From: an uncultured Pseudomonadota bacterium
GTDB taxonomy: Bacteria; Pseudomonadota; Gammaproteobacteria; Burkholderiales; Methylophilaceae
Direction: 5' to 3'
DNA length: 45,425 nt
Assembly (NCBI GenBank): GCA_903833595.1
Contig: CAILFU010000168.1
Location: forward strand, 1-45,425
Shown: positions 4,626 through 30,371 of the stretch, one piece after another
Position numbering within the stretch: the stretch's first letter is position 1
Layout: every line of letters begins with the position of its first letter
Notes under the pieces: model-generated
Seen by the model: only the letters and a program-made list of their open reading frames with translations
Told to the model about the DNA's origin: nothing
The model's database searches: none
Program-made: the position numbers and the translations under genes

Positions 4626-4639
4626 AATACTTAAACGTT

Positions 4640-4780: not shown

Positions 4781-4915
4781 TTCTTCCCCTTAAATTGCAA
4801 TAAAAACTGCATTATTTAGAATAAACACATCAGTTAAGTTTTTGTACTCAGCTGAAGCATGAATTTACGCTCTGTTAATAATGTGTGCAACCGTTTTTTT
4901 TAGGGACTTACTCGT

Positions 4916-6178: not shown

Positions 6179-6215
6179 ATTGATGGCTTATGAGTGTTAA
6201 AAAAGACAGCAGGTT

Positions 6216-6344
6216 TTATTGGCTTGCTGGGGTTGTTTGTGGGTATTTGTGCTCAGGAATATACAGCGGACCTTTAATGCCGCAGCTATTTAATACGCAA
6301 CAAATTGCGGCCAATAGTAATATGCGAGCAGTTATTTTTTGCAT
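6216..6344 (-). CDS. lptM: LPS translocon maturation lipoprotein LptM-like
   Basis: MQKITARILLLAAICCVLNSCGIKGPLYIPEHKYPQTTPASQ: lipobox and CGIKGPLYIP motif, adjacent to lysA as is common. Confidence 0.8.
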   Translation of the reverse strand: MQKITARILLLAAICCVLNSCGIKGPLYIPEHKYPQTTPASQ

Positions 6345-6537
6345 CTATTTTAAAGTCTCGGCTGAGTAGCACTCTATTTAAATATTTATAGCATGATTGC
6401 TTTAAATCTCAGCAAATTTTAACATAAAGCATCCAAAAGTACCGTTTATCGGCCAAATTTTACCGATTATCGATTCAGACTAGACATTGATAACTAGCCT
6501 GTGCATGATGCAATTTAAGTAAAAATTGGAGAAACTC

Positions 6538-6999
6538 ATGCAGACCAGCACCTCTATGCAACTCGACAAAAAATTAAATAGCACCAAGATTGTTTTAGCT
6601 CAAAAAGGGTTTACCTTAATTGAGTTAATGATTGTGGTACTGATTATTGGCGTTTTGTCTAAAATCGCAATGCCCAGTTATGTGGATTATGTTAAGCGCG
6701 GCAAGGCGGCTGAAGCCACTTCTACTTTGGCCGATTTGAGGGTGAAGATGGAACAGTATTATCAAGATAATCGTACTTATGTTGGGGGAAACTGTGCGCC
6801 AGCCAGTGGCGCTAAATACTTTACTTATAGCTGTACCGCACAAACGGCAACGGCTTACACGCTTCAGGCGGCAGGTAAGGCCTCAGAACATATGGGCAAC
6901 TTTAACTTCACTGTGAATGAAAGTAATGCCAAAACATCCACTTTTGATGGGACAAGTGGCGGTACATGCTGGTTAACTAACAAAGGCAGTACCTGCTAA
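6538..6999 (+). CDS. pilE: Type IV pilin (PilE-like); start likely 6538 rather than 6526
   Basis: Class III prepilin signal KGFTLIELMIVVLIIGVL; C-terminal Cys pair. Confidence 0.85.
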   Translation: MQTSTSMQLDKKLNSTKIVLAQKGFTLIELMIVVLIIGVLSKIAMPSYVDYVKRGKAAEATSTLADLRVKMEQYYQDNRTYVGGNCAPASGAKYFTYSCTAQTATAYTLQAAGKASEHMGNFNFTVNESNAKTSTFDGTSGGTCWLTNKGSTC

Positions 7000-7523
7000 T
7001 GTTCTTACCTAACAACAAGTCACTCGGTTTCAGCCTAATAGAATTACTGATAGGCATGACGATTATGGCTGTTGTGATCGCTATAGGGATGCCTAGTTAC
7101 AGCGCATGGATTCAAAATACGCGCATTCGTACTGCGGCAGAATCAATTCAGAATGGCTTGCAAGTGGCGCGCGCCGAAGCTGTTAAAAGAAACGTATCGG
7201 TACAATTTGTATTAAGTGACGGTGCCGCTTGGTTGGTAGGTTGTGAAACCGTCAATAGCACTTGTCCTGCCATCATACAAAGCCGTACGGTCGGTGAGGG
7301 TTCGTCCGGTGACATCACCCTTGCTACTGATGCAGCATTTACTGTTGTGTTTAATAATCTTGGTGCTGTCAATGTATCTCCTACGCCGTTTACACGAGTA
7401 GATGTCGATTCTAGTGTCGCTGCGGCAGATCGGCCGCTTCGTATTACGATTGGGGTTGGCGGCAATATTCGTATGTGTGATCCCTCTACCACCTTGTCAT
7501 CAACAGACCCCAGAAAGTGCTAA
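6999..7523 (+). CDS. fimT: Type IV minor pilin, FimT/GspH family
   Basis: LGFSLIELLIGMTIMAVVIAIGMPSYSAWIQNTRIRTAAESIQNGLQVARAEAVKRN. Confidence 0.85.
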   Translation: MFLPNNKSLGFSLIELLIGMTIMAVVIAIGMPSYSAWIQNTRIRTAAESIQNGLQVARAEAVKRNVSVQFVLSDGAAWLVGCETVNSTCPAIIQSRTVGEGSSGDITLATDAAFTVVFNNLGAVNVSPTPFTRVDVDSSVAAADRPLRITIGVGGNIRMCDPSTTLSSTDPRKC

Positions 7524-7535
7524 TGAGGAAACATC

Positions 7536-7925
7536 ATGAAGATTAAACATCATACGGCTATAGCAAGCTTGCGGCGTCGTTCGCAACAAGGGGTAGTCAT
7601 ACTAGAATCACTCATTGCCATTCTTATTTTCTCTATGGGGATTCTTGCCTTGGTGGGTTTACAGGCAGCCATGGTGAGTAATACGACTTCATCAAAATTT
7701 CGTGCCGATGCAAGTTATATCGCGCAACAAAAACTTGGGCTACTTTGGGCCGACCCAGCCAATGTGGCAGCCTCTGATTCTGATGTGCCAGAATTGCCCA
7801 ATGGCAGATGTTCAATTACCCTGCTCGCAGCTGGGGAAGTACAGATTGTAGTGACTTGGCAGCAGCCAGGTGAAACGGAAATACATAACGTCACCACAAG
7901 CGCACGTATCGCCGGAGGGGCTTAA
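7536..7925 (+). CDS. pilV: Type IV pilus modification protein PilV
   Basis: QGVVILESLIAILIFSMGILALVGLQAAMV. Confidence 0.85.
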   Translation: MKIKHHTAIASLRRRSQQGVVILESLIAILIFSMGILALVGLQAAMVSNTTSSKFRADASYIAQQKLGLLWADPANVAASDSDVPELPNGRCSITLLAAGEVQIVVTWQQPGETEIHNVTTSARIAGGA

Positions 7926-7926
7926 C

Positions 7927-9036
7927 ATGCATCACCCACACACTTCAATACGTTCGCCTAAAACACAATCGGGCTTTAGTTTGATTGAAATTTTAGTCGG
8001 CCTTGTCATTAGCTTGCTAGTGACACTGGTCATCATGCAAGTATTTTCGGTATTTGAAGGGCAAAAACGTAGCACGACCGGCACAGCTGATGCGCAAACT
8101 AATGGCAATATCGCGCTATATAACGTACAGCGCGACGTGCAGTTAGCGGGTTATGGCTTACCTGTGTTTGCCAAAACAGATTCACCCTTACTCTGTACCA
8201 CTTTCACCCCTTCTGGCACTAATCTTTCTCCTATTACCATTACTGATGGCGGCAATGCTGCAGGTGCTAGTGACTCAGTTACAGTTCGCTATGGCAGTAC
8301 ACCATTAGGTGGCGTACCCGTCGTAATTGCTAGCGCACCCTCCCCTGCCACCTCGCCCATGGAAGTCACAGTGCAAAATAATATGGGCTGCGCAGTGGGT
8401 GATACCGCCCTCATTACCAGCGGTACTAGTTGTATCTTGGTTGAAGGTTCCGGTGCTGATGGTGGCTTGCTAGTTCCTACTGCGCCATCAAGCACCACTG
8501 TTATAAAATTAAGAGTTGGCACAGGCGTGGTAACAGGAGCAAGCATCGCTTGTTTAGGTAGCTGGAGGACCTATGTATATTCAGTCAATACCGCAAATCA
8601 GCTAGAACGCTCCTCAACCATTAATGGCGTCACATCTACATCCCCCAATGTTGCAGAAATTGTGAATATGCAAGCGCAATATGGGGTTTCTGCCACGGCG
8701 AATAATAATCAAGTTGTTCAATGGGTGGATGCAACTGGTGCAACATGGGGGCCGACTATCACCCCGGCAAACCGCAACCGTATTAAAGCGTTACGTATTG
8801 CGATTGTCGCTCGCAATGGTTTGTTAGAAAAAACACCACCAGTGCCATTGCCTAGCACATGCACTACGGCAAAAGGTATAGTAAATAACGGCCCATGCGC
8901 ATGGGATGATACGGATTGGGATGCTGCGCCAAAAATAGATCTCTCAAACGATACCAACTGGCAATATTATCGCTATCGTGTGTTTGAAACCATCATCCCT
9001 ATTCGCAGCATGATTTGGTCAAAAGACACCCTGTAA
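7927..9036 (+). CDS. pilW: PilW family protein (ORF track opens at 7870; likely start 7927)
   Basis: SGFSLIEILVGLVISLLVTLVIMQVF; position in pilin cluster. Confidence 0.85.
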   Translation: MHHPHTSIRSPKTQSGFSLIEILVGLVISLLVTLVIMQVFSVFEGQKRSTTGTADAQTNGNIALYNVQRDVQLAGYGLPVFAKTDSPLLCTTFTPSGTNLSPITITDGGNAAGASDSVTVRYGSTPLGGVPVVIASAPSPATSPMEVTVQNNMGCAVGDTALITSGTSCILVEGSGADGGLLVPTAPSSTTVIKLRVGTGVVTGASIACLGSWRTYVYSVNTANQLERSSTINGVTSTSPNVAEIVNMQAQYGVSATANNNQVVQWVDATGATWGPTITPANRNRIKALRIAIVARNGLLEKTPPVPLPSTCTTAKGIVNNGPCAWDDTDWDAAPKIDLSNDTNWQYYRYRVFETIIPIRSMIWSKDTL

Positions 9037-14582: not shown

Positions 14583-14610
14583 AGGGGCTGTGTCGCTATA
14601 AATTACATTT

Positions 14611-15549
14611 CTAGGTAAGCGAACAGTAAAAATATTTATCGATAGTGCACGCCCAGTTCTTAGAGTTTTTCAGGCTATCAAAAGGATTTTCAATAATTTC
14701 TGGATTGTAATTCTCGATTTCCATTTTGTCTCTATCTACTAAGTAAATAAAATAACCATTTTTATTCTTTTCAGCTCTGTCGTATTCAGATTTACTAAGA
14801 TAAAATTCCGGCCTTCCTGTATATGATTTAACTTCAATTTCCCTATCTAATACATATGAATGATTTGTAGAAAATGACAAAATGTCAAAGCCGGCACTTA
14901 CATTAAATGCCGCAACGTGCTGAATGCTATTAACTCTCTGATGGCTTGAAAGTCTTTTTCTTTCATATGCCAGAACAAACAACTCTGCCTCAAGCCCATG
15001 CTGCTCTTGTGCCGCTAATATTTTTTTAAGACCTTCTGGTGTTAACCCTCTTTTTATAGATTCTTTTTCAATTAACGGAAATATAAAATCTTCAGTTGTA
15101 TTTTTAAATTCATTATTGATATAAAGCTTATATTCAGATGAATCTTGAATGAGAAATTTAGAATCAATTAGGAAATTTCTAATTGAGCTTAACTCTAAAC
15201 TAATTGAATTAGTGAAAACATAATATTGATTATTACTTGAATCTAACTTTAGATTTGATGGGGAAAATAGTCTATTAAGAACTTGAATTTGGTCGAGATA
15301 ACTTATAAAGTTAAATAGAAAGGCTGTTCTATTAAAATTCTTTTTTTTTAAAACTTTATTCCCAGAAATGTCGACATATTCCATTTTTTCAAGCAAATTC
15401 AGAGTGCTCAAAAAAATGGACTTCGAGCGAAAGTAACCTGAAGATGCTGCACACAAAGATTCAATAGATTCCGAATTAGATATCCCATCTAAATTTAAGA
15501 GATAATCAATAGCCGTTATTGAGCCTAACTGACTATTTTCTTCTATCAT
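14611..15549 (-). CDS. DUF3883-type PD-(D/E)XK nuclease domain protein
   Basis: C-terminal AGFDILSFSTNHSYVLDREIEVKSYTGRPEFYLSKSEYDRAEKNKNGYFIYLVDR fits the DUF3883 pattern (D...ExK); overlaps 3' end of helicase gene by 17 bp. Confidence 0.75.
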   Translation of the reverse strand: MIEENSQLGSITAIDYLLNLDGISNSESIESLCAASSGYFRSKSIFLSTLNLLEKMEYVDISGNKVLKKKNFNRTAFLFNFISYLDQIQVLNRLFSPSNLKLDSSNNQYYVFTNSISLELSSIRNFLIDSKFLIQDSSEYKLYINNEFKNTTEDFIFPLIEKESIKRGLTPEGLKKILAAQEQHGLEAELFVLAYERKRLSSHQRVNSIQHVAAFNVSAGFDILSFSTNHSYVLDREIEVKSYTGRPEFYLSKSEYDRAEKNKNGYFIYLVDRDKMEIENYNPEIIENPFDSLKNSKNWACTIDKYFYCSLT

Positions 15550-17521
15550 AATAATGTTTTAGTATAGATTTAAAGTCATCATCTTCAACACCGCTATCGC
15601 CAGTGTTTAAATCAAGAAGTGGAATAGGTTCTCTCTCTATTAAATCAAGCATCCTTTCTTCTTTTATCAATAGCCTCTCGTGTATTGCTTCATCAATACT
15701 TTTTTCTGAAAGTAGATAATAGTAGTTAACATTGTCATCTTTTTTTAAGCCGTATCTATGAATTCTGTCTTTCGATTGAATATACATAGCTGCATTGAAG
15801 TTTTTTTCTAAGTAAATTGCATTTCTGCAAGCTTTGTGAAGTGATATTGATTCACCTACTGCGAATGGATTAGCAATAATAACTTTGTATGGGCATTGTT
15901 CTTCATGGAAAGATTTGATAATTTTTTCTCGAGTTTTAACGTCTTCTGGAGTGAATTCATTTTCATTAGGAACTGCACCATAAAGCAACTCACATGAGAT
16001 TCCGCAACTTTCTAAGTATTCTTTGAATCTATGCATACTTTTTATGAATAGCATCCAAACAATTACCTTGCCATCTGGGCCTGGTGATTTTGTTAGGTCT
16101 AGGATTAAATCTTTTGCGACAATATATTTGTTGGGAACTTCAGTGTTATATTTGTTGACGGCATCTAGAATATCTTGATCAGCTGTAATGGGTTTACCAT
16201 ATTGAGTTCCGGCCAACATTAAGTCGTCAATAGCCTCACTTAATAATGCTGGATTAGAGGCACATTGAAGTAGCCTTATGATTCCAGCCCTTTTGAGCAA
16301 AGCATCTAAAGAGTCAACATCGCCCGATAAAAACTTATTTCCAATATATTCATATATTATTCTTTGAGATTCGTTCATAGGAATAATTATTGGTTTGTGC
16401 TCAACCGGAATTGGTAAATCCTTTAAAGAGGACTTAGTGATTCTAATGAAAAAGGGTGAAATATAGTCTGTAAGCTTTTCAATATTGGCTTTTATGCTAG
16501 GGCTTATTGATTCACTCATCTCCCTTAAATAAGGCAGAGGAAATGGAATGATATTTTTAGTTGGCCATATAAATTTGTATAAATTGTATAAATCCTGATA
16601 ACCATTTGGGGCAGGGGTCCCTGTTAGAACTACCCTGGCTTTAGCATACCTTGATAAATTTTTAATCCCCTCCGCTATCTTCCCACCATCTGTATTTTTA
16701 ATTTTGTGCGCTTCATCTAACACGAGCATAACGTCATGTCGTTTCAGGTAATCCTGAATATTTATAATGTCATCTTCACTAATTGCTGCACTTTGATAGG
16801 AAATTAGGATTAATTCAAATTCTTCAGAAGAATGAAAAATGGCAGTTCTTTCTTTAGAGGTCAAACCAACCATTTCTTTGTATTTTGGTGGTACTCCAAA
16901 ACACTTTTTATATTCATCTTTCCATGGGAAAAAAGCAGCCAATGGAGAGATAATTAACAAGCGATTTACATGTTTCTCTTTGTATTGCGGATTTGACTTG
17001 GAAAGGTTTTTTAAATAAGCATATGCAGCGTAGACCATGGTGGTTTTTCCAGTGCCAGGCACAGAAAAATTACAGGCGTTTTGCGAAAATGCTAAATGAT
17101 ATGCTGACAATAATTGTAAATCATACAATGTTCTATCTTTGAACAGGTTATGAATAATTTCCGTGAACTCTTTAAAATCCGGAATGGAGTGTTCATTATT
17201 TCTTATACTTTTAGCTTTTTGAGAAAACTCTTGAAACGCTAAATTCTCATCATTCAGTAGTTGAAGAAGCGCTTTTACCGTAGTGTCTTGTAAAAGATTA
17301 ATGCCAAATTTAATAAAAAATCTTTCAATTTCGGCGTATTTTTTTTCTTGACCTCCATCCAGATATGGAAACTGCACACGACTATCAGATACTAACTTTC
17401 CATTTAGTGCGGTAATGCTAGCTCTAAAGCGAGGAGATAAAGTTAATGAAATAAAGTCTCCATTAACCTCGAATAATAGCTCTCCATGCGGATTACTTGC
17501 ACTTATAGTGGCATCTGACAT
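15533..17521 (-). CDS. SNF2-family DEAD/DEAH-box helicase
   Basis: Walker A VPGTGKTTM, VLDEAHKIKN, VVLTGTPAPNG, C-terminal SKDRIHRYG. Confidence 0.9.
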   Translation of the reverse strand: MSDATISASNPHGELLFEVNGDFISLTLSPRFRASITALNGKLVSDSRVQFPYLDGGQEKKYAEIERFFIKFGINLLQDTTVKALLQLLNDENLAFQEFSQKAKSIRNNEHSIPDFKEFTEIIHNLFKDRTLYDLQLLSAYHLAFSQNACNFSVPGTGKTTMVYAAYAYLKNLSKSNPQYKEKHVNRLLIISPLAAFFPWKDEYKKCFGVPPKYKEMVGLTSKERTAIFHSSEEFELILISYQSAAISEDDIINIQDYLKRHDVMLVLDEAHKIKNTDGGKIAEGIKNLSRYAKARVVLTGTPAPNGYQDLYNLYKFIWPTKNIIPFPLPYLREMSESISPSIKANIEKLTDYISPFFIRITKSSLKDLPIPVEHKPIIIPMNESQRIIYEYIGNKFLSGDVDSLDALLKRAGIIRLLQCASNPALLSEAIDDLMLAGTQYGKPITADQDILDAVNKYNTEVPNKYIVAKDLILDLTKSPGPDGKVIVWMLFIKSMHRFKEYLESCGISCELLYGAVPNENEFTPEDVKTREKIIKSFHEEQCPYKVIIANPFAVGESISLHKACRNAIYLEKNFNAAMYIQSKDRIHRYGLKKDDNVNYYYLLSEKSIDEAIHERLLIKEERMLDLIEREPIPLLDLNTGDSGVEDDDFKSILKHYYDRRK

Positions 17522-17524
17522 TGT

Positions 17525-18817
17525 TTATTTATCTTTTAAGTCTCTTATAAAAGCTTCCGCCAATTTACGAATGTCGTGACACATATCATATACATCTTCA
17601 CCCTTAAAGCTGTCCAATGTGGTATCAACTTGTTCCAATGTTCGTAGAGCCCTTTCTATTAATTCAATCGGCCTATCTTTCTCTGCCTGATCTTTAACGG
17701 TCTCTTCTGCAATTCCTTTAAGTTTTTTAACTATTGGTTTGGCTAAATTCTTGTAATCACGTTCCTTTCCGCTTATTAAGTTCTCAGGACTTTCCTCAGG
17801 GTGTTCTTGGCAGAGTTGATTTAGTGAGGGCTCTTCTTGTTGAATTTTCTCAATTTCTGAAAAAAAGTTTGATGAATTTTTTTTCCATAATTCACCGTAA
17901 TTAAAAAGGCCTTGCCCTTTACTAGGATTAGCTAAAATTCTTAAATCATGTGCACCAAATCCAGCGCGTACTGAATAGAAATAAACTGCTTTTAAATCTT
18001 CGATGTCTGTGGCATCAGGCTGCCAATCTCGCCCCTGAATTGATCTGCCATCTTGGCCGCCATGTGATTTTAAATAGCTTACCAAGTCAGTAAATGGACC
18101 TTCGACCTCATCTTCATCTAGGAGCCGATACATCTGGTCATAATTCTTATCAATGGATAATAAATATTGATCCATTAACTCCAGTATTTTTAAATACTTA
18201 GCAATTTCGGGGTCTTTAACCCCCATCATTTTAGCAATTTCACTAATACTAAAACCATCATTAGTTAATTCTCTACACTTTAGATACTTTTCAATTGGGC
18301 TGTAATCTACCTTAGCATCAACACCCATTTGGAAGATGGTTTCTAGTTTTCTAATTTCCTTTGGATTCGATTCTATCGTCTCATCTAATATCACTGCTGT
18401 AAAGTATGTAGGGGAGGTGTGATTTCTTTCAGCAATTTTCTTTAAAAGCATACATCTTCTGTTGCCGTCTACAATCACCCCATCTCGAGTAACAATGCCA
18501 TACTCAAGTTGACCCTTCTCATCAAGGTCTTTTAAGGTTTCTTCATTGCGGCTCTTATTGGAATTCATCAGGAACTCAACAATTTTCTTTTCACCCTCGG
18601 GGTCAGAAGCATTTATCGGGGAGTGTAATTTTTCAAATTGTTTTACGAATGTACCAATTCGTCCATTGAATTGATTGAAAATTAAGTATTCCACAGGAAT
18701 TTTATAAACGGGATGCGGCTCAGCCATTTGACTTTTGTAAACAAGTGGCTTAGTACTGATTGGTTTTTGAGTATCCATTAACTCTCTCAACTTTTGTTCC
18801 CTGCTGACGGCGTCCAT
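17525..18817 (-). CDS. ParB/Srx N-terminal-domain-like protein
   Basis: DGVIVDGNRRCMLLKKIAE (ParB box II-like) followed by HTH-like DGFSISEIAKMMGVKDPEIAKYLKILELMDQYL. Confidence 0.8.
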   Translation of the reverse strand: MDAVSREQKLRELMDTQKPISTKPLVYKSQMAEPHPVYKIPVEYLIFNQFNGRIGTFVKQFEKLHSPINASDPEGEKKIVEFLMNSNKSRNEETLKDLDEKGQLEYGIVTRDGVIVDGNRRCMLLKKIAERNHTSPTYFTAVILDETIESNPKEIRKLETIFQMGVDAKVDYSPIEKYLKCRELTNDGFSISEIAKMMGVKDPEIAKYLKILELMDQYLLSIDKNYDQMYRLLDEDEVEGPFTDLVSYLKSHGGQDGRSIQGRDWQPDATDIEDLKAVYFYSVRAGFGAHDLRILANPSKGQGLFNYGELWKKNSSNFFSEIEKIQQEEPSLNQLCQEHPEESPENLISGKERDYKNLAKPIVKKLKGIAEETVKDQAEKDRPIELIERALRTLEQVDTTLDSFKGEDVYDMCHDIRKLAEAFIRDLKDK

Positions 18818-18825
18818 AAGATTCC

Positions 18826-20517
18826 TTAGGTTAGTTTATGAAGTGCGTACGATGCCATAATCTGAGAAACTGGTACAAAACCTTTAGGAAAAAGGTCGCA
18901 AGCTGGCACAGGCTTATTAATTTGATCTACAGAGAATGTTTGAATGATTTTCTTTATTTCTTTTACTCTGTTAATTGGATTTTTTATATCTTCAAGATTT
19001 AAATCTTCTTCATAGATTGCTTGATTATTAGAGTTAATTTTTGGTATATCTAATTCAAAAATCCTCATTTTAAAATCATGGAATTGTGGAAAATGACCTA
19101 CAAGTATTTTCTCAATTTTGTTTATATCATGACTATTAAAAACTTTAACTTTGTGATTTAACCCAGTGCCTGCAAAAGCTGCTACATACCATTTCTTACC
19201 AACGCTATCATTTTTTATAGGATGGTAGTTCAGCAAATCTACAGTCATATTGCCTTGTTTAAGTGGGTGTCTTCTAAAACGTGAATTAATGGCTCTACGC
19301 TTGGGATTATCAAACTTTCTTTCTGAAAAGGTATTTAAATTAAATACTTTCTCATTTAGGCCCTTAAATTTATCAAAATTAGGTAAAAAAACTGGAGCCA
19401 ATCCGACTTTATCTCTAATTGCCTTAGCTAAAGCTGCGCTCAGGTGAGGAGAAACTGAATTTCCAATTTGTTTCCATTTTTGCGATTCTGAGCCAACAAA
19501 TTGATAGCAATAAGGATACCCCATCAAAGTGGCAATCTCACGGATTGTAGGTAGTCTATATTCACCATTTCCAACCCGATTGTATTCTGACTTGAAAATA
19601 ATAGCTTCACGTGTTGATGCCGAGCGAGTTGCCATAATAGTTCTAGAGCTTCTAGTTTCAATTTCAGGAAATGACATTTTGCCCATATAAGGATGATTAA
19701 CTTTACAATGCTCAGCTTTTTCCCATTCAATCTTATATAACCCAGTGTCGTAGAAATGATCAGTCATCTCGTTTAAGGAAACCTGAAGCGAAGGATAATT
19801 CGGATCTGTAAAAGAATATTCACATGGATTTTTGGCAAGTTTAAAATTTGGGGCAGGTATTGATGAACGTATTTCCCCGACTGTTATTTGCTGAGTAACA
19901 GTTTTTTCTGGGTGCAGGTATTCACCAGTTTCAATCCATTCACCAACTACATAGCGTCTGCGATTTTGTGGTGCACCATAGTCTGCAGCATTAAGGACTT
20001 CGCCCTTAATATAAAGTACTACGTCCTTAGGATTCTTCCTCAAAGATATAGCCCACTCTTTCAAATTTAACTCTTCAAAAGTATATTGGGCTTTAATGTG
20101 AGATTGCGATTCTGGGACATTTTCCATGTACCAAGCTTTTAGCACAGAGTTAGGCTTACTTTTTTGAATTGCTATAACCCTTAAGAAAGCTTTGATTAAC
20201 TTTACACCATCTGTTTTGTCGGCTTTCCCCGCTCTATTTGACATCGAAAAAGAGACGCAAGATGGGCTACCTATAATTACTTCAGCCTCAGGTAGTTTGA
20301 TTGCATCGGTAACATCGTCTGAACTTTTACCCCAAAAGTCTAGTACGTTTTGAATGGTGTCGTTCAGATGATGGTTCAGATTATGGGAATCTAAGGCATT
20401 TTGCCAAAAATCAATCCCCTTTATGATACTAAAACCCTGCTGTCTGAACCCTTCTGAGAAGCCGCCAGCACCGCAAAAAAAATCAATTACTTTTAAAGAT
20501 TTATCCATTATCAGCAT
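18826..20517 (-). CDS. DNA (cytosine-5-)-methyltransferase with long C-terminal extension
   Basis: Motif I VIDFFCGAGGFSEGF, motif IV-like GSPSCVSFS, motif VI MENVPES, motif VIII QNRRRYVVG, motif X QIGNSVSPHLSAALAKAI. Confidence 0.9.
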   Translation of the reverse strand: MLIMDKSLKVIDFFCGAGGFSEGFRQQGFSIIKGIDFWQNALDSHNLNHHLNDTIQNVLDFWGKSSDDVTDAIKLPEAEVIIGSPSCVSFSMSNRAGKADKTDGVKLIKAFLRVIAIQKSKPNSVLKAWYMENVPESQSHIKAQYTFEELNLKEWAISLRKNPKDVVLYIKGEVLNAADYGAPQNRRRYVVGEWIETGEYLHPEKTVTQQITVGEIRSSIPAPNFKLAKNPCEYSFTDPNYPSLQVSLNEMTDHFYDTGLYKIEWEKAEHCKVNHPYMGKMSFPEIETRSSRTIMATRSASTREAIIFKSEYNRVGNGEYRLPTIREIATLMGYPYCYQFVGSESQKWKQIGNSVSPHLSAALAKAIRDKVGLAPVFLPNFDKFKGLNEKVFNLNTFSERKFDNPKRRAINSRFRRHPLKQGNMTVDLLNYHPIKNDSVGKKWYVAAFAGTGLNHKVKVFNSHDINKIEKILVGHFPQFHDFKMRIFELDIPKINSNNQAIYEEDLNLEDIKNPINRVKEIKKIIQTFSVDQINKPVPACDLFPKGFVPVSQIMASYALHKLT

Positions 20518-20620
20518 ATTGTAATGTATAAATTCTTTAGTACATAATAAGAAAATTTCACTTATAAATACAACATTTTATGAGGCAATTACCAGGGTGG
20601 TCGCTAATCGAAAAATCGCA

Positions 20621-20658
20621 CAAAAGATAACGCCCCAATCTTTCGAAAGGGCTGTCTT
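20621..20658. repeat. Direct repeat copy A (terminator-like) next to tRNA fragment
   Basis: caaaagataacgccccaatctttcgaaagggctgtctt; 35/38 identical to 22854..22891 by eye. Confidence 0.85.
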
Positions 20659-20660
20659 TG

Positions 20661-20700
20661 TAGTGAAAGAGGGACTTGAACCCTCAACCCTGTGATTATG
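20661..20700 (-). repeat. tRNA-Met 3' fragment (attachment-site remnant)
   Basis: tagtgaaagagggacttgaaccctcaaccctgtgattatg; 35/40 identical to 32451..32490 of the intact tRNA-Met. Confidence 0.85.
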
Positions 20701-20738
20701 CATTTCAGTCATGAGATATTTTATTCTAATAATTATTT

Positions 20739-21599
20739 CTAGGCTGAGAAGCCATTTATAAATTGTTGTAACAGGCGTTCTGAATGATGCAGTGGGTTTT
20801 CCATCGCCTTTAATTCTTTTGCCATGTCTTGAATGAGGTATCTTCTTTTTTCACCGTTGATTATTGTAAGTATCTGTTCTTTCGTTGTTTGAGATGCCAT
20901 CTTTGATGCATCCTTGCCAAGCAACCAAGCGCCTGTTAATTCAATGTCATAGTCTGCTGCTTCTAGTGCTGCAATTGCAATATTATCTTCGTAGATTCTA
21001 GTCTCATTTCCTGCTTCATGATAACTCCTTAAAAGCGCGGCCAAATCAATTGCATCTTTTGATTTGGAGTCATGCCTACGATCCACCCATGCAAATATTT
21101 TGAGTATTGCAATACTTGGTAGTGATGCTATAGAAATGGTTAGGTCTGGCTCTAGTTCTAACTTTATCGCCGCATTAAGCGCATCTCTATATCCGGCAAC
21201 ATTTAAAATTACTGACATCTCTGGCGGCCATTTGATGGTATCAGGTGTAGTTTCAATTGCGCCAAAAGGGATTAAGTCTATTTCATATGCATGCTGTTGT
21301 TCGGCAGTATTAAAAAAGAGTTGGTGAATTTTGCCATTTGATTGTGTAAAGCCACATTCATTAATTAAGTATGCTTTAATTTTTTCATACATAGTCCAGT
21401 TTTCGATTGCTAATGCAAAGTCAATATCATTAGATGTCCTACCAGCACTTAATCCAAATACATGTTCCAGCAGTATTATTCTTGCTGTTGCACCTATCAT
21501 AAATATTTCAAAATCTAGCACTTGAGCGGCTTTGTAAACTTCACGTATTACAGCTACTCTCATCGGATCTAATGCTCTAATGGGCTTAGTCATAGGCAT
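20739..21599 (-). CDS. AbiEii-like nucleotidyltransferase toxin (start uncertain; track opens at 21653)
   Basis: GATARIILLEHVFGLSAGRTSNDIDFAL nucleotidyltransferase-like motif; coupled to an AbiEi-like gene. Confidence 0.65.
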   Translation of the reverse strand: MPMTKPIRALDPMRVAVIREVYKAAQVLDFEIFMIGATARIILLEHVFGLSAGRTSNDIDFALAIENWTMYEKIKAYLINECGFTQSNGKIHQLFFNTAEQQHAYEIDLIPFGAIETTPDTIKWPPEMSVILNVAGYRDALNAAIKLELEPDLTISIASLPSIAILKIFAWVDRRHDSKSKDAIDLAALLRSYHEAGNETRIYEDNIAIAALEAADYDIELTGAWLLGKDASKMASQTTKEQILTIINGEKRRYLIQDMAKELKAMENPLHHSERLLQQFINGFSA

Positions 21600-22632
21600 T
21601 TTCAATGTATTTTTCGTAGATAATTTTTGCTGTGTCAAAATTTCGAGGGTCAAGTGTTGCTAGTAAGTCTGCATATACTAATATTGGTGGCACAGTGTCT
21701 GCAGGTGGCTCATCTTTGAAATCCCAGAATGCGTCGATAAACTCAATGTCCCCTTGAGGGTCTGCTCTTAGCTTTTGGTCTACTACCATTCGAGTCATAT
21801 TCTTTTGTATGTCAGCGTTATGAAAATAAAGCGTGCATGTCTGTGGGCGTAAGTAGCCAGTTAGTTTTTCTGCTGCGACTTCTGCACCCCATTGCGCACC
21901 ATATTGCTTTGCGTCTACTGCATGCCACCAGTCGGGTGTTGGTGCCCTAAATTTTCTTACGTTAAGCCTTGGTCGTAATTTTATAGGGTAGTTAGTCACC
22001 CATTCTTGTATTAGTTTGTTACGTTCAAGCATAGTGCGTTTGGCCTTTTCACCAATGGTATAACCTCTTTCATCAAGGTCATAAAGTACCCATCCGATTG
22101 TTCCAAGTGCCACTCCGGCCACGTCATTAATATCTCTATAAGTAGCATTCAGCAAAGTCGGTTTGCATAAAAGTGCAAATACAACTCTTAAATTGGTGGG
22201 TGTTACAGCTCTTTTGCCTTCGGGTCTGTCTAGCTTGAAGGTGTCATTTGGGCGTTGTCCTTTTATGAGGACAAATATGCCATGTCCTTTCAGGTAAGCA
22301 TTGCCTGTGGTGTCTATAAATTGCAAATCAAGCTCTCGGCATTTATCTGCCATTTCTTCTGTAATACGTGGGGCGACAAGCATTAATTGTTCGCCGTATG
22401 GACCTAGACGGTGTTTTAGTTCAGCTATATGTGCAAAGCGATCTACTCGCTTAATCTCTGCTATGACAATAAGGTTCTTGCCATTTATTGTTAATTCAAC
22501 TGTAGCATCACCACGCATGCCTTTTGCAAACTCGGGTTCAATGTCGGTTATACGACCATTGATCCCCGTAGTTTGTTGCAAAGCGTCTAAAGCTCTTGCT
22601 AATATTAGATGTTCTGTTTTAAGTATTTTCAT
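21586..22632 (-). CDS. AbiEi-family type IV toxin-antitoxin antitoxin-like protein
   Basis: VELTINGKNLIVIAEIKR...DLQFIDTTGNAYLKGHGIFVLIKGQRP...; paired with nucleotidyltransferase. Confidence 0.65.
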   Translation of the reverse strand: MKILKTEHLILARALDALQQTTGINGRITDIEPEFAKGMRGDATVELTINGKNLIVIAEIKRVDRFAHIAELKHRLGPYGEQLMLVAPRITEEMADKCRELDLQFIDTTGNAYLKGHGIFVLIKGQRPNDTFKLDRPEGKRAVTPTNLRVVFALLCKPTLLNATYRDINDVAGVALGTIGWVLYDLDERGYTIGEKAKRTMLERNKLIQEWVTNYPIKLRPRLNVRKFRAPTPDWWHAVDAKQYGAQWGAEVAAEKLTGYLRPQTCTLYFHNADIQKNMTRMVVDQKLRADPQGDIEFIDAFWDFKDEPPADTVPPILVYADLLATLDPRNFDTAKIIYEKYIENAYD

Positions 22633-22650
22633 TTTGTTTAATAATTCATA

Positions 22651-22740
22651 ATGTTCGCGTTACGTGAACATTATTGCATATTGAACAAGATTGTCAACAC
22701 TTTTGTTCATTAAAAATTAATGTTCACGTAACGTGAACAT
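22651..22740. promoter_or_regulatory. Candidate operators of the AbiE-like operon: two 21-bp palindromes plus a central inverted repeat
   Basis: ATGTTCGCGTTACGTGAACAT (22651-22671), TGAACAA..TTGTTCA (22682-22709), ATGTTCACGTAACGTGAACAT (22720-22740). Confidence 0.7.
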
Positions 22741-22777
22741 ATTTATCTTATGAACTAATGCTTAAACGAAGCCAGTA

Positions 22778-22804
22778 CACATTCGGACAATTTGTCCGAA
22801 TGTG
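22778..22804. repeat. 27-bp perfect palindrome
   Basis: CACATTCGGACAA-T-TTGTCCGAATGTG. Confidence 0.85.
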
Positions 22805-22853
22805 AAAGCTAAAATTAAAATGTAGTTAATTGACTGCTAGGTCACTGCGTCGA

Positions 22854-22908
22854 CAAAAGAAAACGCCCCAATCTTTCGAAAGGGGCGTCTTGAGTGGTGG
22901 GAAAGAGT
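22854..22908. repeat. Direct repeat copy B (terminator-like) with degenerate attachment-like tail
   Basis: caaaagaaaacgccccaatctttcgaaaggggcgtcttgagtggtgggaaagagt; hairpin ACGCCCC/GGGGCGT; tail resembles tRNA-Met 3' end tggtgaaagag. Confidence 0.7.
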
Positions 22909-22967
22909 CCCCCAAACAATCGCCTATAATCAATTATATATAGTGGTTTACTAATTTAGTGTTATAG

Positions 22968-22990
22968 AGTTACCCCCAAAGTTACCCCAA
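22968..22990. repeat. Tandem GTTACCCC(M)A motifs, candidate integrase arm-type sites
   Basis: gagttacccccaaagttaccccaa; the same paired motif occurs at 32312..32336. Confidence 0.5.
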
Positions 22991-23194
22991 TTAGTTTAAC
23001 TCTTCTATATTTCCCGTGTGAGCGATATGCTTCTAATGTTACCTCAAGCCGTCATTCTATACGCCTAAACAAACTGAGATAAATAGGGTGGGGGGGTATT
23101 TTCTATATGGTGATGGTGGTCGGGTAATGGTACCTGCCTATCGTATCTGTCACAGCGTTAGGTTGGGATGCAGTCCCTCTAACTCATTATTCAT

Positions 23195-24079
23195 TTAATT
23201 TGTGCTTAAATAATTACATACCTCTTTAACCAGCCCCACTTTATTTTCGTAATCAAGGAATACCCATTGCCCATTAGCGTTATATTCAAGAAAGATTAAC
23301 TCTCCATTTCTTTCTAGAAAATCTATTCTCCCCCAATTAACTTTCAGGTCAGCGCAGAATTTATCAATAGCAATATTCTCTTTTGCACTTAACTCTCTAA
23401 GATTCCATTGTTTTGTATCTTTAAAGTCTTGTTCTGAGCGCCAATCTAATCCCTTCAAGTCTTTACGACTCCTCTGAAATGCAAATGACTTACCATTACA
23501 AATAAATATAGTAGTGTCATATTCAGCGTCAATGGTTTCTTGTAAGTACCAAGGGAACTCTGGGTTAAGTTTATTAACATCTACGGCGGTAGTGAATAAG
23601 GTGTGATTAGTTGTTGTCAGTCCTGAAGATAAAGACTTAGCTACAACATTTTTATTTTTTAGATTTGGTGCTTTTTTGAAACCCCATCCAGTAAATGTCT
23701 CGGGGGTGGGGAAGTGATTCTGTGCTACGGACAAGATATGTATTTTGCCGTTCCTGTTATGAAAATCTGAAGGGGTTCCCTTGACTAGATTGCGGTGAAA
23801 GAACCAGTTATATATCTCTCTAAAAACATATTTAACTTCTTCATTTACAAAATCATCTTCATGAGCTTGATAATTTGTAACTTTCCACCAAAAACAATGG
23901 GATGCAGTTTCGGACGTTATTTCTAACCCAGCTGGATTCTTAATTCTCCAATAGCTTGGCGTTAATTCAACTTCATACTCTTCAAAAATATCAAAATTAA
24001 ATCTGAATGCTTTTTCATTGATTTGTTCAAAAAGTAAATCTGACGTACCATCAAAAGAAGCTGTTAAAACTAATAGCAC
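23195..24079 (-). CDS. ATP-grasp ligase, MvdD/RimK-like, candidate graspetide RiPP maturase
   Basis: MLLVLTASFDGTSDLLFEQI N-terminus; ILSVAQNHFPTPETFTGWGF; C-terminal VNWGRIDFLERNGELIFLEYNANGQWVFLD typical of graspetide ligases; GTG start. Confidence 0.75.
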   Translation of the reverse strand: MLLVLTASFDGTSDLLFEQINEKAFRFNFDIFEEYEVELTPSYWRIKNPAGLEITSETASHCFWWKVTNYQAHEDDFVNEEVKYVFREIYNWFFHRNLVKGTPSDFHNRNGKIHILSVAQNHFPTPETFTGWGFKKAPNLKNKNVVAKSLSSGLTTTNHTLFTTAVDVNKLNPEFPWYLQETIDAEYDTTIFICNGKSFAFQRSRKDLKGLDWRSEQDFKDTKQWNLRELSAKENIAIDKFCADLKVNWGRIDFLERNGELIFLEYNANGQWVFLDYENKVGLVKEVCNYLSTN

Positions 24080-24100
24080 GTCAGGCTTTCACTAACTTAA

Positions 24101-24283
24101 TTAGTCGTTATCAGCATCATTTGGTCTACCAGTGTAGTCATATGTTTGAGTGCCGTTCATTGTCACTTGCTGCCATGCTACAGTAGTATTTTTTTGCAAT
24201 TGATGGTCATACATAGGCGCTGCAACGTCAATGCGCATCGGCGCAGTTGCTAGCATTAATGGTGTTAAAAGTTCAATAATCAT
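24101..24283 (-). CDS. Candidate graspetide precursor peptide (60 aa)
   Basis: MIIELLTPLMLATAPMRIDVAAPMYDHQLQKNTTVAWQQVTMNGTQTYDYTGRPNDADND; AAGGAG RBS; 21 bp upstream of the ATP-grasp gene; Thr-rich then Asp-rich C-terminus. Confidence 0.7.
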   Translation of the reverse strand: MIIELLTPLMLATAPMRIDVAAPMYDHQLQKNTTVAWQQVTMNGTQTYDYTGRPNDADND

Positions 24284-24402
24284 TCTAAGCTCCTTATGGC
24301 AAAAATTGATAGATATAATACTTTACAACAGTTCAACACTACCCCTTACCTGAAGAACTATCAAGCGAATTTACAGTAAACATACAAATATATTAACTCT
24401 GG

Positions 24403-24416
24403 TTGATTTATATCAA
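24403..24416. promoter_or_regulatory. Perfect FNR/ANR-type box
   Basis: TTGAT-TTAT-ATCAA matches TTGATNNNNATCAA; 120 bp upstream of precursor start codon. Confidence 0.6.
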
Positions 24417-24442
24417 ATTCAATAAATTAGGTAAGGTACCCA

Positions 24443-24889
24443 TTAACGGAAACTTCCACAATCGTACGATAAATATTTATAGCATGAGCTTATGCAATCA
24501 TTATCTTTTTCATTCTTTCCAGAAGTTAGCCCACAGTTTCGCTGACAATTATTGAGTGCATCTTGCCTCTTCTGGGCACATTGTTGTGATTTATTTTCAT
24601 CTTGCTGGAATTTATACGCATCCTTGATATTTCTAGTCATTGTTTCATCGTTAAGAATTTTCAGTTTCTGTTGCTGCTCTTGTTGCTCCTTAGCAGCTAA
24701 ATCCTTTTCTCGTGCTTCTCTTTCCTTTAATTCTCTCGCTAATTTAAGGTATTCATCTCTTCTTTGCTGCATATCAAGTTGCTGCTGTTTAGTTTGTTGG
24801 CTACCGATCTCATTTTTTTGTTCCTCCCCCATAGAGTGCAGTGGGAAGTAGCAAAGTACTAATAAAAGAATTAATAGTATTTTCTTCAT
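24443..24889 (-). CDS. Secreted Cys-rich coiled-coil hypothetical protein (track opens at 24919)
   Basis: MKKILLILLLVLCYFPLHSMG signal peptide; Gln/Glu-rich helix; six Cys in C-terminal part. Confidence 0.6.
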   Translation of the reverse strand: MKKILLILLLVLCYFPLHSMGEEQKNEIGSQQTKQQQLDMQQRRDEYLKLARELKEREAREKDLAAKEQQEQQQKLKILNDETMTRNIKDAYKFQQDENKSQQCAQKRQDALNNCQRNCGLTSGKNEKDNDCISSCYKYLSYDCGSFR

Positions 24890-25062
24890 CGGAATATTCC
24901 TTGAGAAACCTAATACCAAATATTAATAGACAATACTCTCTTTTTATAGAAAGTAAGCTATCCTATTGAAGCGTTGGTAAAAAATTAAGAAAACTCTACC
25001 TAAAAATGCAATCCTAATTGTGGTGGGATGCCTATTTAGCAGTATTTTTTTGGATAACTTAT

Positions 25063-25536
25063 ATGATAAAAGTCATAAGTGCAGTAGTTTTTATGTTTCT
25101 ATTTAGTTCAACCGCAAGTGCTCTTGAGTTAAAGCTCTCATGTGACATCAAGGTTAAAGTTACTTTTTCTAATGGTGATGTAAGGGATACGCAAGGCAGT
25201 GCCATCGTTGAAGTCATGGATTATGGGGCTGGTAAAAAATACATAGGCATAACCTCAGCAGACGAGGTTGCAAATAGTTTGTCTGTTATTCTCAAGCAAG
25301 AACTGGGAAAAACTATCACTGATAATAGCGATGAAAATAAATGGGACATTGAAAACACTTACTCTGGTAACGAAGGCCGAGTAGAAAACCCACGCAGCAC
25401 ACGCATAGTGATAGATAGAAATTCTGGGGAATTAATTGGTTCAAGTTCTTTTACTCAGAAATCTAATGGATTGGCGTTGAACATAGGAGTATCTGGTAAT
25501 TGTAAAAAAATAAATACCTCAGTCAAAAAGTTTTAA
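25063..25536 (+). CDS. Secreted hypothetical protein (likely start 25063; track opens at 25018)
   Basis: MIKVISAVVFMFLFSSTASALELKLSCDIKVKVTFSNGD: signal peptide. Confidence 0.6.
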   Translation: MIKVISAVVFMFLFSSTASALELKLSCDIKVKVTFSNGDVRDTQGSAIVEVMDYGAGKKYIGITSADEVANSLSVILKQELGKTITDNSDENKWDIENTYSGNEGRVENPRSTRIVIDRNSGELIGSSSFTQKSNGLALNIGVSGNCKKINTSVKKF

Positions 25537-25597
25537 ATAAGCGAAATATTTAATGGGCTTGCTAATAAGTACTCAGCGACCACTGAAAGCGGCTTAC

Positions 25598-25912
25598 CTA
25601 TTTTGAACGTAATCTTTTCCTATATTCAGCATTAGGCTCTGGTTCACCATAGCTCTCTTCATAGCTTGCAAGCATCCCAAGTATCTTTTCAGATTTCTGT
25701 TTAGGGGGTGACTCCAAATCCTTAGGCACTTCTATTGCAACACACCTGTTTAATGTTATAGCTTCTAGGAGCTTATCCTTGCTTGAGATTAGATAAACAT
25801 CTTTCTCACATTCCTTACAGAAGCGCACACCATCACGAGATGTTTCTTTCATCTCATCCCACTTTTGAGCACAACGAAAGCCAAAAACACAATTGCGAAT
25901 TTTTATTGTCAT
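25598..25912 (-). CDS. Small Cys-rich, zinc-ribbon-like hypothetical protein
   Basis: CVFGFRCAQKWDEMKETSRDGVRFCKECEKDVYLISSKDKLLEAITLNRCVAIEVP. Confidence 0.55.
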   Translation of the reverse strand: MTIKIRNCVFGFRCAQKWDEMKETSRDGVRFCKECEKDVYLISSKDKLLEAITLNRCVAIEVPKDLESPPKQKSEKILGMLASYEESYGEPEPNAEYRKRLRSK

Positions 25913-26014
25913 TGAAATATGTCCTGAATTTCATTTACCCTATATGAAGCATACGGCGTTGGCCATAGATGAAAATTTAAGGAGAAAATATGTAGTTTAG
26001 ATTTCCTTAATAAT

Positions 26015-26284
26015 CTAGGTATTGTCTGGAATCCTTCCATATGTCCGTTCGTAGTAATCTATTTCTCCTTCAAGATTCCAAATATGGTTATGAATGTTTT
26101 GTATGCGATTGCTAAGATAAATAAAAGATAAAATAGTAAGGAACGCTCTTAAGTGGTTATACCAGTCAGAATTATCAAATCCATTTGGATATGCATGACC
26201 AATTGATGTAATAAAAATAAATAATATGCAAAGTATTGTTTTTCCGCCAATACTTCTTCTGTCATATAGCTTTTCTTTTGCCAT
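26015..26284 (-). CDS. Small membrane hypothetical protein
   Basis: 89 aa with hydrophobic segments. Confidence 0.45.
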   Translation of the reverse strand: MAKEKLYDRRSIGGKTILCILFIFITSIGHAYPNGFDNSDWYNHLRAFLTILSFIYLSNRIQNIHNHIWNLEGEIDYYERTYGRIPDNT

Positions 26285-26389
26285 AACTTACCTCTCAATT
26301 CAATATGTTAAGGGTGTTATTTAACAATAATAAGCAATGCTTGTTTACACATTACATGCTCCATATACTTTTTGCTTTTAAAGTAAAAA

Positions 26390-27631
26390 TTAGCGAGATA
26401 AAGGGCAAATGTTTGAACCCATATTCAAAACAGTACCATCATCGTATCTACACATTGTATTGCCTTTCTCAATCCATTGACCTTTAAGAAAATGAGATAT
26501 TCCTGTATTAACAGATGGTGAGGCAACTGGTGGAGTTGGAACTGGTTGGTTAGCCATGCAACTTGCATATGCTCTGTCTGCATATTGCTGACTTTCTGCA
26601 AAACTACCATTAGGCACTGGTGTTAAGTAAGCTTGAGCTTTAGCAAGTTCGCAATTCTGACCTATGGCATTAATGGGGGTTCTGCGAGGAGATGCGGATG
26701 GTGTTATTTTCTCCTGAAATTCTCCTGCGTTAAAAATTCCCTCATGCACATCCTCTAAATTACTTAGGGGTGAGTACCTCACTCTTCCTTGAAGATCGCC
26801 GTCTTTAAAGTACCCAACTAGGAATATATTTTTTTCCTTAGAAGCCATCGTTCCAAAGCCATTATAGGAATTATTTTTAAACTCGCCTAAATAACCATCG
26901 CCAGGCTCGCCATCACGACCATAGCAATCATTTTTTTCACCGAATTTAGGGCAATCAGGTAATGTGCTTGTTATGCCGTCAAAATCTACAATGCGTAGTT
27001 CATGTTGAAATTCTGATGACTGTTCTGAAGCATTTATTTGTTGGTTTCTTGATGACTCTTGGTACTGATTTGACTCTTCAATAATCCTCTTACTTCGCTC
27101 TTCATAGCTTTCGTGTCCTGCCATGACATTATTCGCCTGATTGTATTGGCTAGAACTAGGAACAACAGCCTCACCTTGCTTAGCTTTAACGTTAGGCATG
27201 TTCAAACCATATTCATTACTGCTTGTATCTAATGAATGCACGCATGATATGAAAAGGCTTCCGCTATCATAGTATTCATAAATGGAACCAAGTTCTAGGT
27301 TAACGGCGAAATGTGAGTTTCTATAGAATCTTGAATTTGATAATGTGGATGTCCAAATGCCACCTAACATCCATTTCTTTTCATTTAATACTTTAGGATT
27401 TTGATGGTTCTCTTTATAGAGTGAGGAAAGCTCATCTTTCGTCGGTAATCTCCATCCCGTTAAACCATCAATAGTAGTTGCGTTGCAATAGCTATTAGCC
27501 TCGTTCCAACTTTCAGATTTAGATGAAGGAAGTGACCAAGCTAGTCCTCCTTGACGTGCAAATAAATTAGCTTGAGCAGCGTTAACAGACATCAAAACTG
27601 TAATAGCTAAAATACCAATTATTTGCTTCAT
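26390..27631 (-). CDS. Secreted DUF1566-like protein with MORN-like segment
   Basis: GLAWSLPSSKSESWNEANSYCNATTIDGLTGWRLPTKDELSSLY (DUF1566-like); YLGEFKNNSYNGFGTM (MORN-like). Confidence 0.7.
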   Translation of the reverse strand: MKQIIGILAITVLMSVNAAQANLFARQGGLAWSLPSSKSESWNEANSYCNATTIDGLTGWRLPTKDELSSLYKENHQNPKVLNEKKWMLGGIWTSTLSNSRFYRNSHFAVNLELGSIYEYYDSGSLFISCVHSLDTSSNEYGLNMPNVKAKQGEAVVPSSSQYNQANNVMAGHESYEERSKRIIEESNQYQESSRNQQINASEQSSEFQHELRIVDFDGITSTLPDCPKFGEKNDCYGRDGEPGDGYLGEFKNNSYNGFGTMASKEKNIFLVGYFKDGDLQGRVRYSPLSNLEDVHEGIFNAGEFQEKITPSASPRRTPINAIGQNCELAKAQAYLTPVPNGSFAESQQYADRAYASCMANQPVPTPPVASPSVNTGISHFLKGQWIEKGNTMCRYDDGTVLNMGSNICPLSR

Positions 27632-27924
27632 TTTTTAGATTCAACCAATTTTTTTTAGTAATAGCTACAATGTTGGGCTAAAAATACATAAATCAAGATT
27701 AACCTTACTCTCTATATTGTTAATATTCAATCATCGGAATATCATAAATGTGATGAAGCTGAGGAAAAATACAAACAGCCGACTTGTTATAATTGTGAAC
27801 CACCTGGCTCAGTGAACCATGTTAATGACCACTAACATAGATTGGATTGGGTTAATTGTAAACTTCTCATATCCATTGCCTTGTATATGTTTAAGACATG
27901 GAAAAATATAATAAGGAGTGAGAA

Positions 27925-28269
27925 ATGAAAAGTTTATTGATGTTGCTATTTTTAATAATAGTTGGTTGTTCTATTGATGATAAATCAAGAGAAGATAGAG
28001 CAGAAATAGAAAATATTATTAAAAATACGCTAAATGACCCAGCATCAGTGCAATTTAAAGATTTTAGAATAACGAAAGATAATTTATATGCTTGTATTAC
28101 TTGGAATGCCAAAAATAAATTTGGCGGCTACGTAGATTTCAAAACCACTCAATTTAAATGGGGTAAATTTACGAGTGAATCCCCCGTATGGAGTCCTATA
28201 GATGCTGATGTTGTTGATAACAAATGTTCGCAAGATAGCATTGATAAATATAATAATTTACTCCCATAA
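27925..28269 (+). CDS. Small lipoprotein
   Basis: MKSLLMLLFLIIVGCSIDDKS lipobox; aaggag RBS. Confidence 0.7.
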   Translation: MKSLLMLLFLIIVGCSIDDKSREDRAEIENIIKNTLNDPASVQFKDFRITKDNLYACITWNAKNKFGGYVDFKTTQFKWGKFTSESPVWSPIDADVVDNKCSQDSIDKYNNLLP

Positions 28270-28555
28270 ATGCTGGGCTAAAGAGTAAGAGAAAACGACT
28301 AAATTGCCTAATCTATCCCAGTGATGAGTCATTAAGAGCGTTTCTCACCATTTCAATCATCCTTCCACAAAACGGACTGCGGAATTTTTAAAATATATAT
28401 CCCCCACCCTTTTTCATATAAACACTGACGGGGGGGTCTTCTGCAACAGCTTTTAGAATCGCCGTATGGGTATAAATTAGGTACAGACTTTTTGGCTATT
28501 CACGGGGTTAAGATATATTGTAAGAATAACAGTCTAGAAACAGTAAGACCGCATA

Positions 28556-28789
28556 TTAATCACTATTTTCTATCATCCCAAACTCTATCGCTACAGTAGC
28601 AAGTAACTTCAGCCTAGCATTTACTTCTATGGCTAATAGTTTGGATTCTTTTGTGTATCTGCCATGCTTGTAATTGTAATGCGCCTCGCCTGACGGTGAT
28701 AAACCACCATGCAAACGGCATCTTGTCTTACCTACTACGGATGGCTTCTTACAAGGTGTGCCTGCTCTTGTTTTAGCGCCGCAATTCAT
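28556..28789 (-). CDS. HGGxTG-motif-like phage/island protein
   Basis: MNCGAKTRAGTPCKKPSVVGKTRCRLHGGLSPSGEAHYNYKHGRYTKE. Confidence 0.7.
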   Translation of the reverse strand: MNCGAKTRAGTPCKKPSVVGKTRCRLHGGLSPSGEAHYNYKHGRYTKESKLLAIEVNARLKLLATVAIEFGMIENSD

Positions 28790-29025
28790 ACTGTTTCCTT
28801 TGAGCAGATTACTATCAATAGGTGAGCAGGGTTGATGCCGGCTATTTTAAGGGGTGGGGGTACGGTGGGGTCTGGTATTCCCGAAAGTGACAAGCCTCCC
28901 CCTACTAGTTGATGCCAGTCTAGCCAGCGACTATTTGCTATTATTTGTAACATGGTTGTTGGCTTGATGTTGGTCATGGTTAGCTCTTTTGTGTCAATCT
29001 CATTTACCATTACTAGCTTCATCAT
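28786..29025 (-). CDS. Hypothetical protein
   Basis: 79 aa ORF in a compact overlapping gene train. Confidence 0.4.
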   Translation of the reverse strand: MMKLVMVNEIDTKELTMTNIKPTTMLQIIANSRWLDWHQLVGGGLSLSGIPDPTVPPPLKIAGINPAHLLIVICSKETV

Positions 29026-30020: not shown

Positions 30021-30022
30021 AA

Positions 30023-30268: not shown

Positions 30269-30371
30269 GATGTATTTTCCTGTTGTTGTAAGTAACAGGT
30301 CACATCTTAATAACTCATGAGTTTTATAAAGTCCGTGGGCGGTAGCAAATAGCCCACGGGCTAAAGGTTCT

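Follow-up and report, generated by a model that had tools for sequence, protein, structure and literature searches.

In this study, we asked what purpose is served by a run of four minus-strand genes (positions 14611–20517) in a 45,425-nucleotide contig from an uncultured member of the Methylophilaceae, the whole of which is referred to here as the window. The genes encode a C5-methyltransferase (C5-MTase), a ParB-like protein, an SNF2-family ATPase and a DUF3883 protein (Table 1), and a first-pass annotation had read them as a candidate restriction–modification (R-M)-like system without a name. All four open reading frames are intact and their spacing, two gaps of 8 bp and 3 bp followed by a 17-bp overlap, agrees exactly with that annotation. 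Within the source genome, the cassette MTase is the sole match to DNA_methylase (PF00145) and the cassette DUF3883 protein the sole match to NOV_C. The reading that we consider probable, as judged from sequence comparisons, is that the cassette belongs to an unnamed family of ATP-dependent R-M systems that move horizontally. According to this proposal, the C5-MTase would mark the host's own sites, while the SNF2 double-strand DNA translocase would form a complex with the DUF3883 nuclease, their genes being translationally coupled, and this complex would attack unmodified foreign DNA; we infer that phage or plasmid DNA would be restricted in this way, with DUF3883 making the cut. The ParB-like protein would be a nucleotide- and DNA-binding clamp or switch, which either loads the motor-nuclease onto DNA or licenses it, and recognition would come from the MTase, perhaps from its C-terminal domain, or from the helix–turn–helix (HTH) of the ParB-like protein.

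Table 1. Features of the cassette and of the adjoining integrated element, in window coordinates
Feature	Position	Strand	Basis or remark
C5-cytosine DNA methyltransferase, 563 aa	18826-20517	-	Pfam DNA_methylase
Catalytic C5-MTase domain, aa 8-367	19417-20496	-	PF00145, E 1.7e-35
MTase C-terminal extension, aa 373-563	18829-19401	-	Conserved in window-type (long) MTases
ParB-like protein, 430 aa	17525-18817	-	Conservation, AlphaFold model
SNF2-family ATPase, 662 aa	15533-17521	-	SNF2-rel_dom 6.9e-22, Helicase_C 8.6e-6
DUF3883/NOV_C PD-(D/E)XK-type nuclease protein, 312 aa	14611-15549	-	Pfam NOV_C 5.5e-10
NOV_C (DUF3883) nuclease domain, aa 188-274	14728-14988	-	Pfam
SNF2/DUF3883 gene overlap, 17 bp	15533-15549	-	Overlap kept in 77/79 homologous junctions
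tRNA-Met	32448-32524	-	3' part copied at 20663-20685
Tyrosine integrase	31061-32290		Bounds the integrated element together with the 23-bp repeat

The cassette is a real conserved unit. Using the ParB-like protein as the sole bait, 79 loci were found in genomes and 13 in viral sequences, and both counts are lower bounds because the scans used short peptide patterns. Among the 67 well-flanked bait loci, an SNF2 gene is adjacent in 63 and DUF3883 is present in 61, a C5-MTase gene lies no more than 6 kb away in 66, and all three partners occur together in 59. The cassette was found in at least ten named phyla, and with such recurrence the arrangement is not due to chance. The SNF2 and DUF3883 genes overlap at almost every junction (77 of 79), mostly by 26 or 17 bp. 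When SNF2 was used as an independent bait, a ParB gene adjoined it in 26 of 27 viral loci. Among plasmids, the ParB search and the SNF2 search yielded 70 records each, and the genera were nearly identical. The Streptococcus phage Javan191 carries ParB, SNF2 and DUF3883 in this order with a C5-MTase gene downstream. Distance matrices also point to co-evolution of the components, with Mantel correlations of 0.89 for ParB–SNF2, 0.83 for SNF2–DUF3883 and 0.65 for ParB–MTase that were reached in 0 of 500 permutations, a procedure that ignores shared ancestry. The distribution is patchy, and in the window's own phylum the cassette is rare (2 of 398 genomes); no close ParB homologue was found in the 149 relatives searched, and three genomes of the same family gave weak ParB matches only (E 8.6e-10 to 9.8e-4). 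The four genes that had been proposed to form one unit thus do recur elsewhere in the same order, but what is conserved as a unit is the ParB–SNF2–DUF3883 trio.

The part of the first-pass annotation that assigned the effector function to the helicase together with the DUF3883 protein fits well with the conservation of the active sites and of the gene overlap. The SNF2 protein has a Walker A motif (GTGKT, aa 156–160), a DEAH box (269–272) and a motif VI (QSKDRIHR, 582–589), and the Walker A, DEAH and motif VI/arginine-finger residues are invariant among 36 diverse homologues. The catalytic set of the DUF3883 protein (E189, D222 and E239-V-K241, hence D...EVK) is kept in 34 of 35 window-type homologues and in 30 of 30 homologues of a second branch, referred to below as type B. 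As these residues are retained in both branches, DUF3883 is probably catalytic in both, including type B, which has an extra endonuclease of its own. The window version is without any other nuclease in the cassette, which makes SNF2–DUF3883 the likely restriction arm. SNF2–DUF3883 fusions have been described in R-M operons, and DUF3883 has been proposed as a novel restriction endonuclease (REase) domain (PMC3710099).

With regard to the MTase, motif IV reads IIGSPSC(87)VSFS and the catalytic motifs are intact, so that the protein is predicted to be the self-marking methyltransferase expected of a type II R-M system. The original four-gene reading stands as far as this enzyme is concerned, but it had lacked a family-specific C-terminal domain that the MTase also bears. 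AlphaFold models this extension confidently (pLDDT 91.5), and the model has no fold match in the PDB. We considered whether the extension could be a fused endonuclease and rejected this, as it has no D..ExK nuclease motif, no fold match in the PDB, and no similarity in hhalign comparisons with the DUF3883 protein or with the BanI-type enzyme of type B. A match between a set of 'short' MTases and the extension was returned by hhalign, but this set included truncated window-type sequences (L001, for example), which probably gave rise to a spurious match. The extension may serve for recognition or docking.

The ParB-like protein gave nothing above the cut-off in Pfam (HTH_ParB 0.0077, ddrB-ParB 0.047), and a profile search of the PDB led nowhere. 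Its label is nevertheless correct: the AlphaFold model (pLDDT 93.4) matches Noc (1.4e-4) and KorB (1.9e-4) in a Foldseek search of the PDB with a probability of 1.00, and Spo0J was matched as well. The model predicts the ParB N-domain and HTH fold of the ParB/Spo0J/Noc superfamily, with a ParB/Srx-type N-domain, an HTH at about aa 171–222 and a helical C-terminal half. Within the family, D117-G-N-R-R121 (GNRR, aa 118–121), E159, Q163 and Y172 are kept nearly without exception, also in a clade that is linked to a hydrolase (see below). The GNRR motif is present, whereas ETxxQMG stands in place of the usual ENxQR motif. Noc, KorB and Spo0J use CTP, and the cassette protein is probably a nucleotide-gated loader or switch.

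None of the systems named in PADLOC accounts for the cassette. A PADLOC check found no direct match, as the first-pass annotation had supposed, and returned generic matches only: to a type II MTase, to helicase segments of ZorD, DpdE and DrmD, and to the NOV_C part of TmtA and PD-T4-1. The NCBIfam helicase matches lie far under the curated cut-offs (36.7 versus 610 bits for DrmD, 56 versus 1500 for ZorD). The cassette resembles class 1 (DrmD) and class 2 (DrmMII) DISARM in that its SNF2 protein and C5-MTase give weak DrmD and DrmMII matches; however, there is no DrmA/DrmB-type gene in or beside it, the DrmB and DrmC models had no match among the eight proteins scanned, and DrmA gave one local helicase match on the SNF2 protein (5e-5). 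No PglZ or BrxC match was obtained for BREX. The SNF2 protein, at just 662 aa and with a ZorD match limited to the helicase part, is not that of Druantia or Zorya, and the flanking genes have no ZorA/ZorB matches. Type III Mod and Res are absent from the cassette and occur only in distant ParB–SNF2 relatives. DISARM, BREX, Druantia, Zorya and type III R-M were rejected on the Pfam, PADLOC and NCBIfam scans, which also bear out the earlier observation that drmB, pglZ and the Druantia giant helicase are lacking. No type II REase family was detected in the four cassette genes or in adjacent genes, and a search of the source genome, run without a positive control, found no relative of the BanI-type partner.

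In the broad sense of an ATP-dependent R-M system, an MTase, an SF2 motor and a nuclease are encoded together here, and several described systems are similar in this respect. The nuclease of CglI and NgoAVII is of the PLD type, another family than DUF3883. In these systems the ATPase and nuclease subunits cooperate and cleavage needs ATP hydrolysis (PMC4267653), and, like the cassette, they combine an MTase with a separate nuclease and a separate helicase-like ATPase (PMC4267653, PMC5737866). Their ATPase is described as DEAD-family and their three-gene set is without ParB, whereas the cassette has SNF2, DUF3883 and ParB. By analogy, the cassette most likely works like CglI and NgoAVII without belonging to their family. 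The closest operon logic that has been published is that of operons joining a helicase, a C5-MTase, Vsr and a REase with MORC/GHKL ATPases (Iyer et al., 2008; PMC2292703); they share with the cassette and its relatives the combination of a cytosine methylase, an SFII helicase (SWI2/SNF2 in one group), a nuclease and Vsr, but have a GHKL ATPase where the cassette has ParB, and ParB and DUF3883 are unmentioned in that work. In the R-M operons of Anantharaman et al. (2013; PMC3710099), an SNF2 motor is also tied to DUF3883; the partners there are of the HEPN/DUF499-type AAA+ kind, and in contrast to those fusions the cassette has separate overlapping genes, a ParB-like protein and a C5-MTase. Two Lactobacillales plasmid type III operons (L152, L153) have the same ParB–SNF2 pair at about 31–32% identity but with an adenine-type Mod and a Res, and L152 is without a DUF3883 gene. 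A literature search, outside which many journals and preprints lay, found no paper describing or naming this gene combination.

Comparison of the loci revealed that partners are exchanged around a constant core. Window-type (type A) loci have a long MTase of about 530–585 aa, and in none of 36 such loci does the cassette include a gene for a dedicated endonuclease. In type-B loci the MTase is shorter, and an additional gene (about 305 aa) has a product that matches the BanI and DpnII endonucleases. For ParB, SNF2 and DUF3883, the mean identity between types A and B (38%, 46% and 27%, respectively) is similar to that within type A (42%, 47% and 29%). The MTases share only 21% identity across the two types, compared with 39% within A and 58% within B; the core trio hence stayed while the MTase changed. 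In a quick ParB tree, in which 20 of 59 inner branches are weak and the root is arbitrary, type B forms a single clade (SH-aLRT 93) nested among A-type lineages. From these comparisons, ParB–SNF2–DUF3883 behaves as a portable core that is coupled to two dissimilar C5-MTases, with or without a BanI/DpnII-type enzyme. Further partners of ParB–SNF2 relatives include enzymes of the MutH/Sau3AI type (L063 and L064, L069 by inspection and L008 as annotated), the BglII type (L019, L053, L143, L144) and the NgoBV type (L056, E 7e-100). In four loci (L135, L145, L152, L153) ParB–SNF2 directly follows a type III Mod–Res operon; on the two small Lactobacillales plasmids, Mod–Res and then ParB–SNF2 span positions 3626–8599 (L152) and 70–8084 (L153). 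In some distant viral loci, ParB–SNF2 is accompanied by an MTase of the N6/N4 type and by a BglII-type enzyme. The idea of a four-gene R-M-like system accordingly holds for the window, but the trio is common also to complete type II systems and the ParB–SNF2 pair to type III systems. Upstream Vsr genes were found in 13 of 36 type-A and 7 of 30 type-B loci; there is none in the window or the source genome, in a search that was positive in five control genomes. A Rhizobium plasmid (L010, 658–10110) has Vsr, C5-MTase, an ATP-binding protein, ParB, SNF2 and DUF3883 in one run, together with two paralogous proteins without family assignment (1818–2684 and 6033–6899), one in each half.

Since type-B loci have an endonuclease in addition to the trio, a helper role is an alternative to the cassette itself being the cutter: there the trio accompanies a complete type II system and may be its helper. 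ParB–SNF2–DUF3883 would then not be the primary restriction enzyme but an accessory powered by ATP, from which many R-M systems benefit. It could, for example, remove bound proteins, degrade the ends left by cleavage or counteract anti-restriction, and the window would have lost, or would not need, a classical endonuclease. The occurrence of ParB–SNF2 in operons with complete BanI/DpnII-, MutH/Sau3AI-, BglII- and NgoBV-type and type III Mod–Res systems is in agreement with this, as is the dissimilarity of the MTase groups next to ParB and SNF2 identities near the within-group values. However, a helper would be useless in the 36 type-A loci without a dedicated endonuclease in the cassette, and DUF3883 has retained its full set of active-site residues in the two branches alike; on this evidence, we regard a purely accessory role as rather unlikely.

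A different division of labour is suggested by five loci (L027, L029, L030, L043, L070) in which an alpha/beta-hydrolase (PGAP1/DUF676-like) replaces SNF2–DUF3883 after ParB. Their ParB proteins form one monophyletic clade (SH-aLRT 99); L027 and L029 have a long C5-MTase in the same gene run, and in L030 and L043 the ParB–hydrolase pair adjoins a complete cassette. This would be consistent with a sensor-switch or abortive mechanism, in which MTase and ParB monitor methylation and ParB frees an exchangeable, cell-harming effector if modification fails or a phage appears. Such loci number only five, though, and a motor-nuclease effector suits ordinary restriction equally well, and we think this mechanism improbable. 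The fold that the ParB-like protein shares with Noc, Spo0J and KorB could also indicate a chromosome or plasmid partition operon, or a regulatory operon, unrelated to defence. This is very improbable, as the cassette has no ParA and its partners are an MTase, a motor and a nuclease, R-M genes and Vsr recur nearby, AbiE adjoins in the window, and the spread is patchy.

Beyond the ATP-dependent R-M reading of the window cassette, we tentatively put forward, as a real possibility, that the ParB clamp and SNF2, usually with DUF3883, form a general plug-in module that was acquired independently by type II and type III R-M systems of both the C5 and the N6/N4 kind. The clamp would couple self/non-self recognition to exchangeable effectors, the motor-nuclease in most loci and the alpha/beta-hydrolase in the sister clade, where the swap suggests a common trigger with different outputs. 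If this is true, restriction biology would have a new layer, in which a nucleotide-gated clamp licenses restriction or enforces it; a widespread R-M family present in at least ten phyla would so far have lacked a name, and restriction would have recruited clamps of the ParB type, which are familiar from DNA segregation. The exchange of the module among C5-type, adenine-type and type III systems raises a clear and testable question, namely how an R-M system benefits from having a ParB clamp together with an SNF2 translocase.

The GC content falls where the cassette begins, to 0.32–0.38 compared with about 0.43–0.46 leftward, and in eight genomes of the same genus the place of the cassette after Hpre_diP_synt_I is taken by other, mutually conserved genes, none of which match the window. 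To the right of the cassette, an exact 23-bp direct repeat (20663–20685 and 32453–32475), which is the 3' part of tRNA-Met, and the tyrosine integrase bound an integrated element of about 11.8 kb. We considered whether the cassette is a part of this element, but the att repeat places it just outside. A terminator-like hairpin to the left of the 23-bp copy resembles one beside tRNA-Met in a relative (L163). Hpre_diP_synt_I and YchF are about 18 kb apart in the window (14583–32590), and in six same-genus genomes they are separated by hundreds of kb or lie on different contigs; their proximity here reflects a rearrangement, or possibly an assembly join in this 251-contig genome. Within the element, AbiEii (20739–21653) and AbiEi (21586–22632) form a type IV toxin–antitoxin pair directly adjoining the cassette, and a protein with an Lcl_C (adhesin-type) domain is encoded at 26390–27631. 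A further reading frame in the element (23195–24079) resembles ATP-grasp ribosomal peptide maturases at a level below the cut-off (best 2.9e-15), and is a possible peptide-modification gene.
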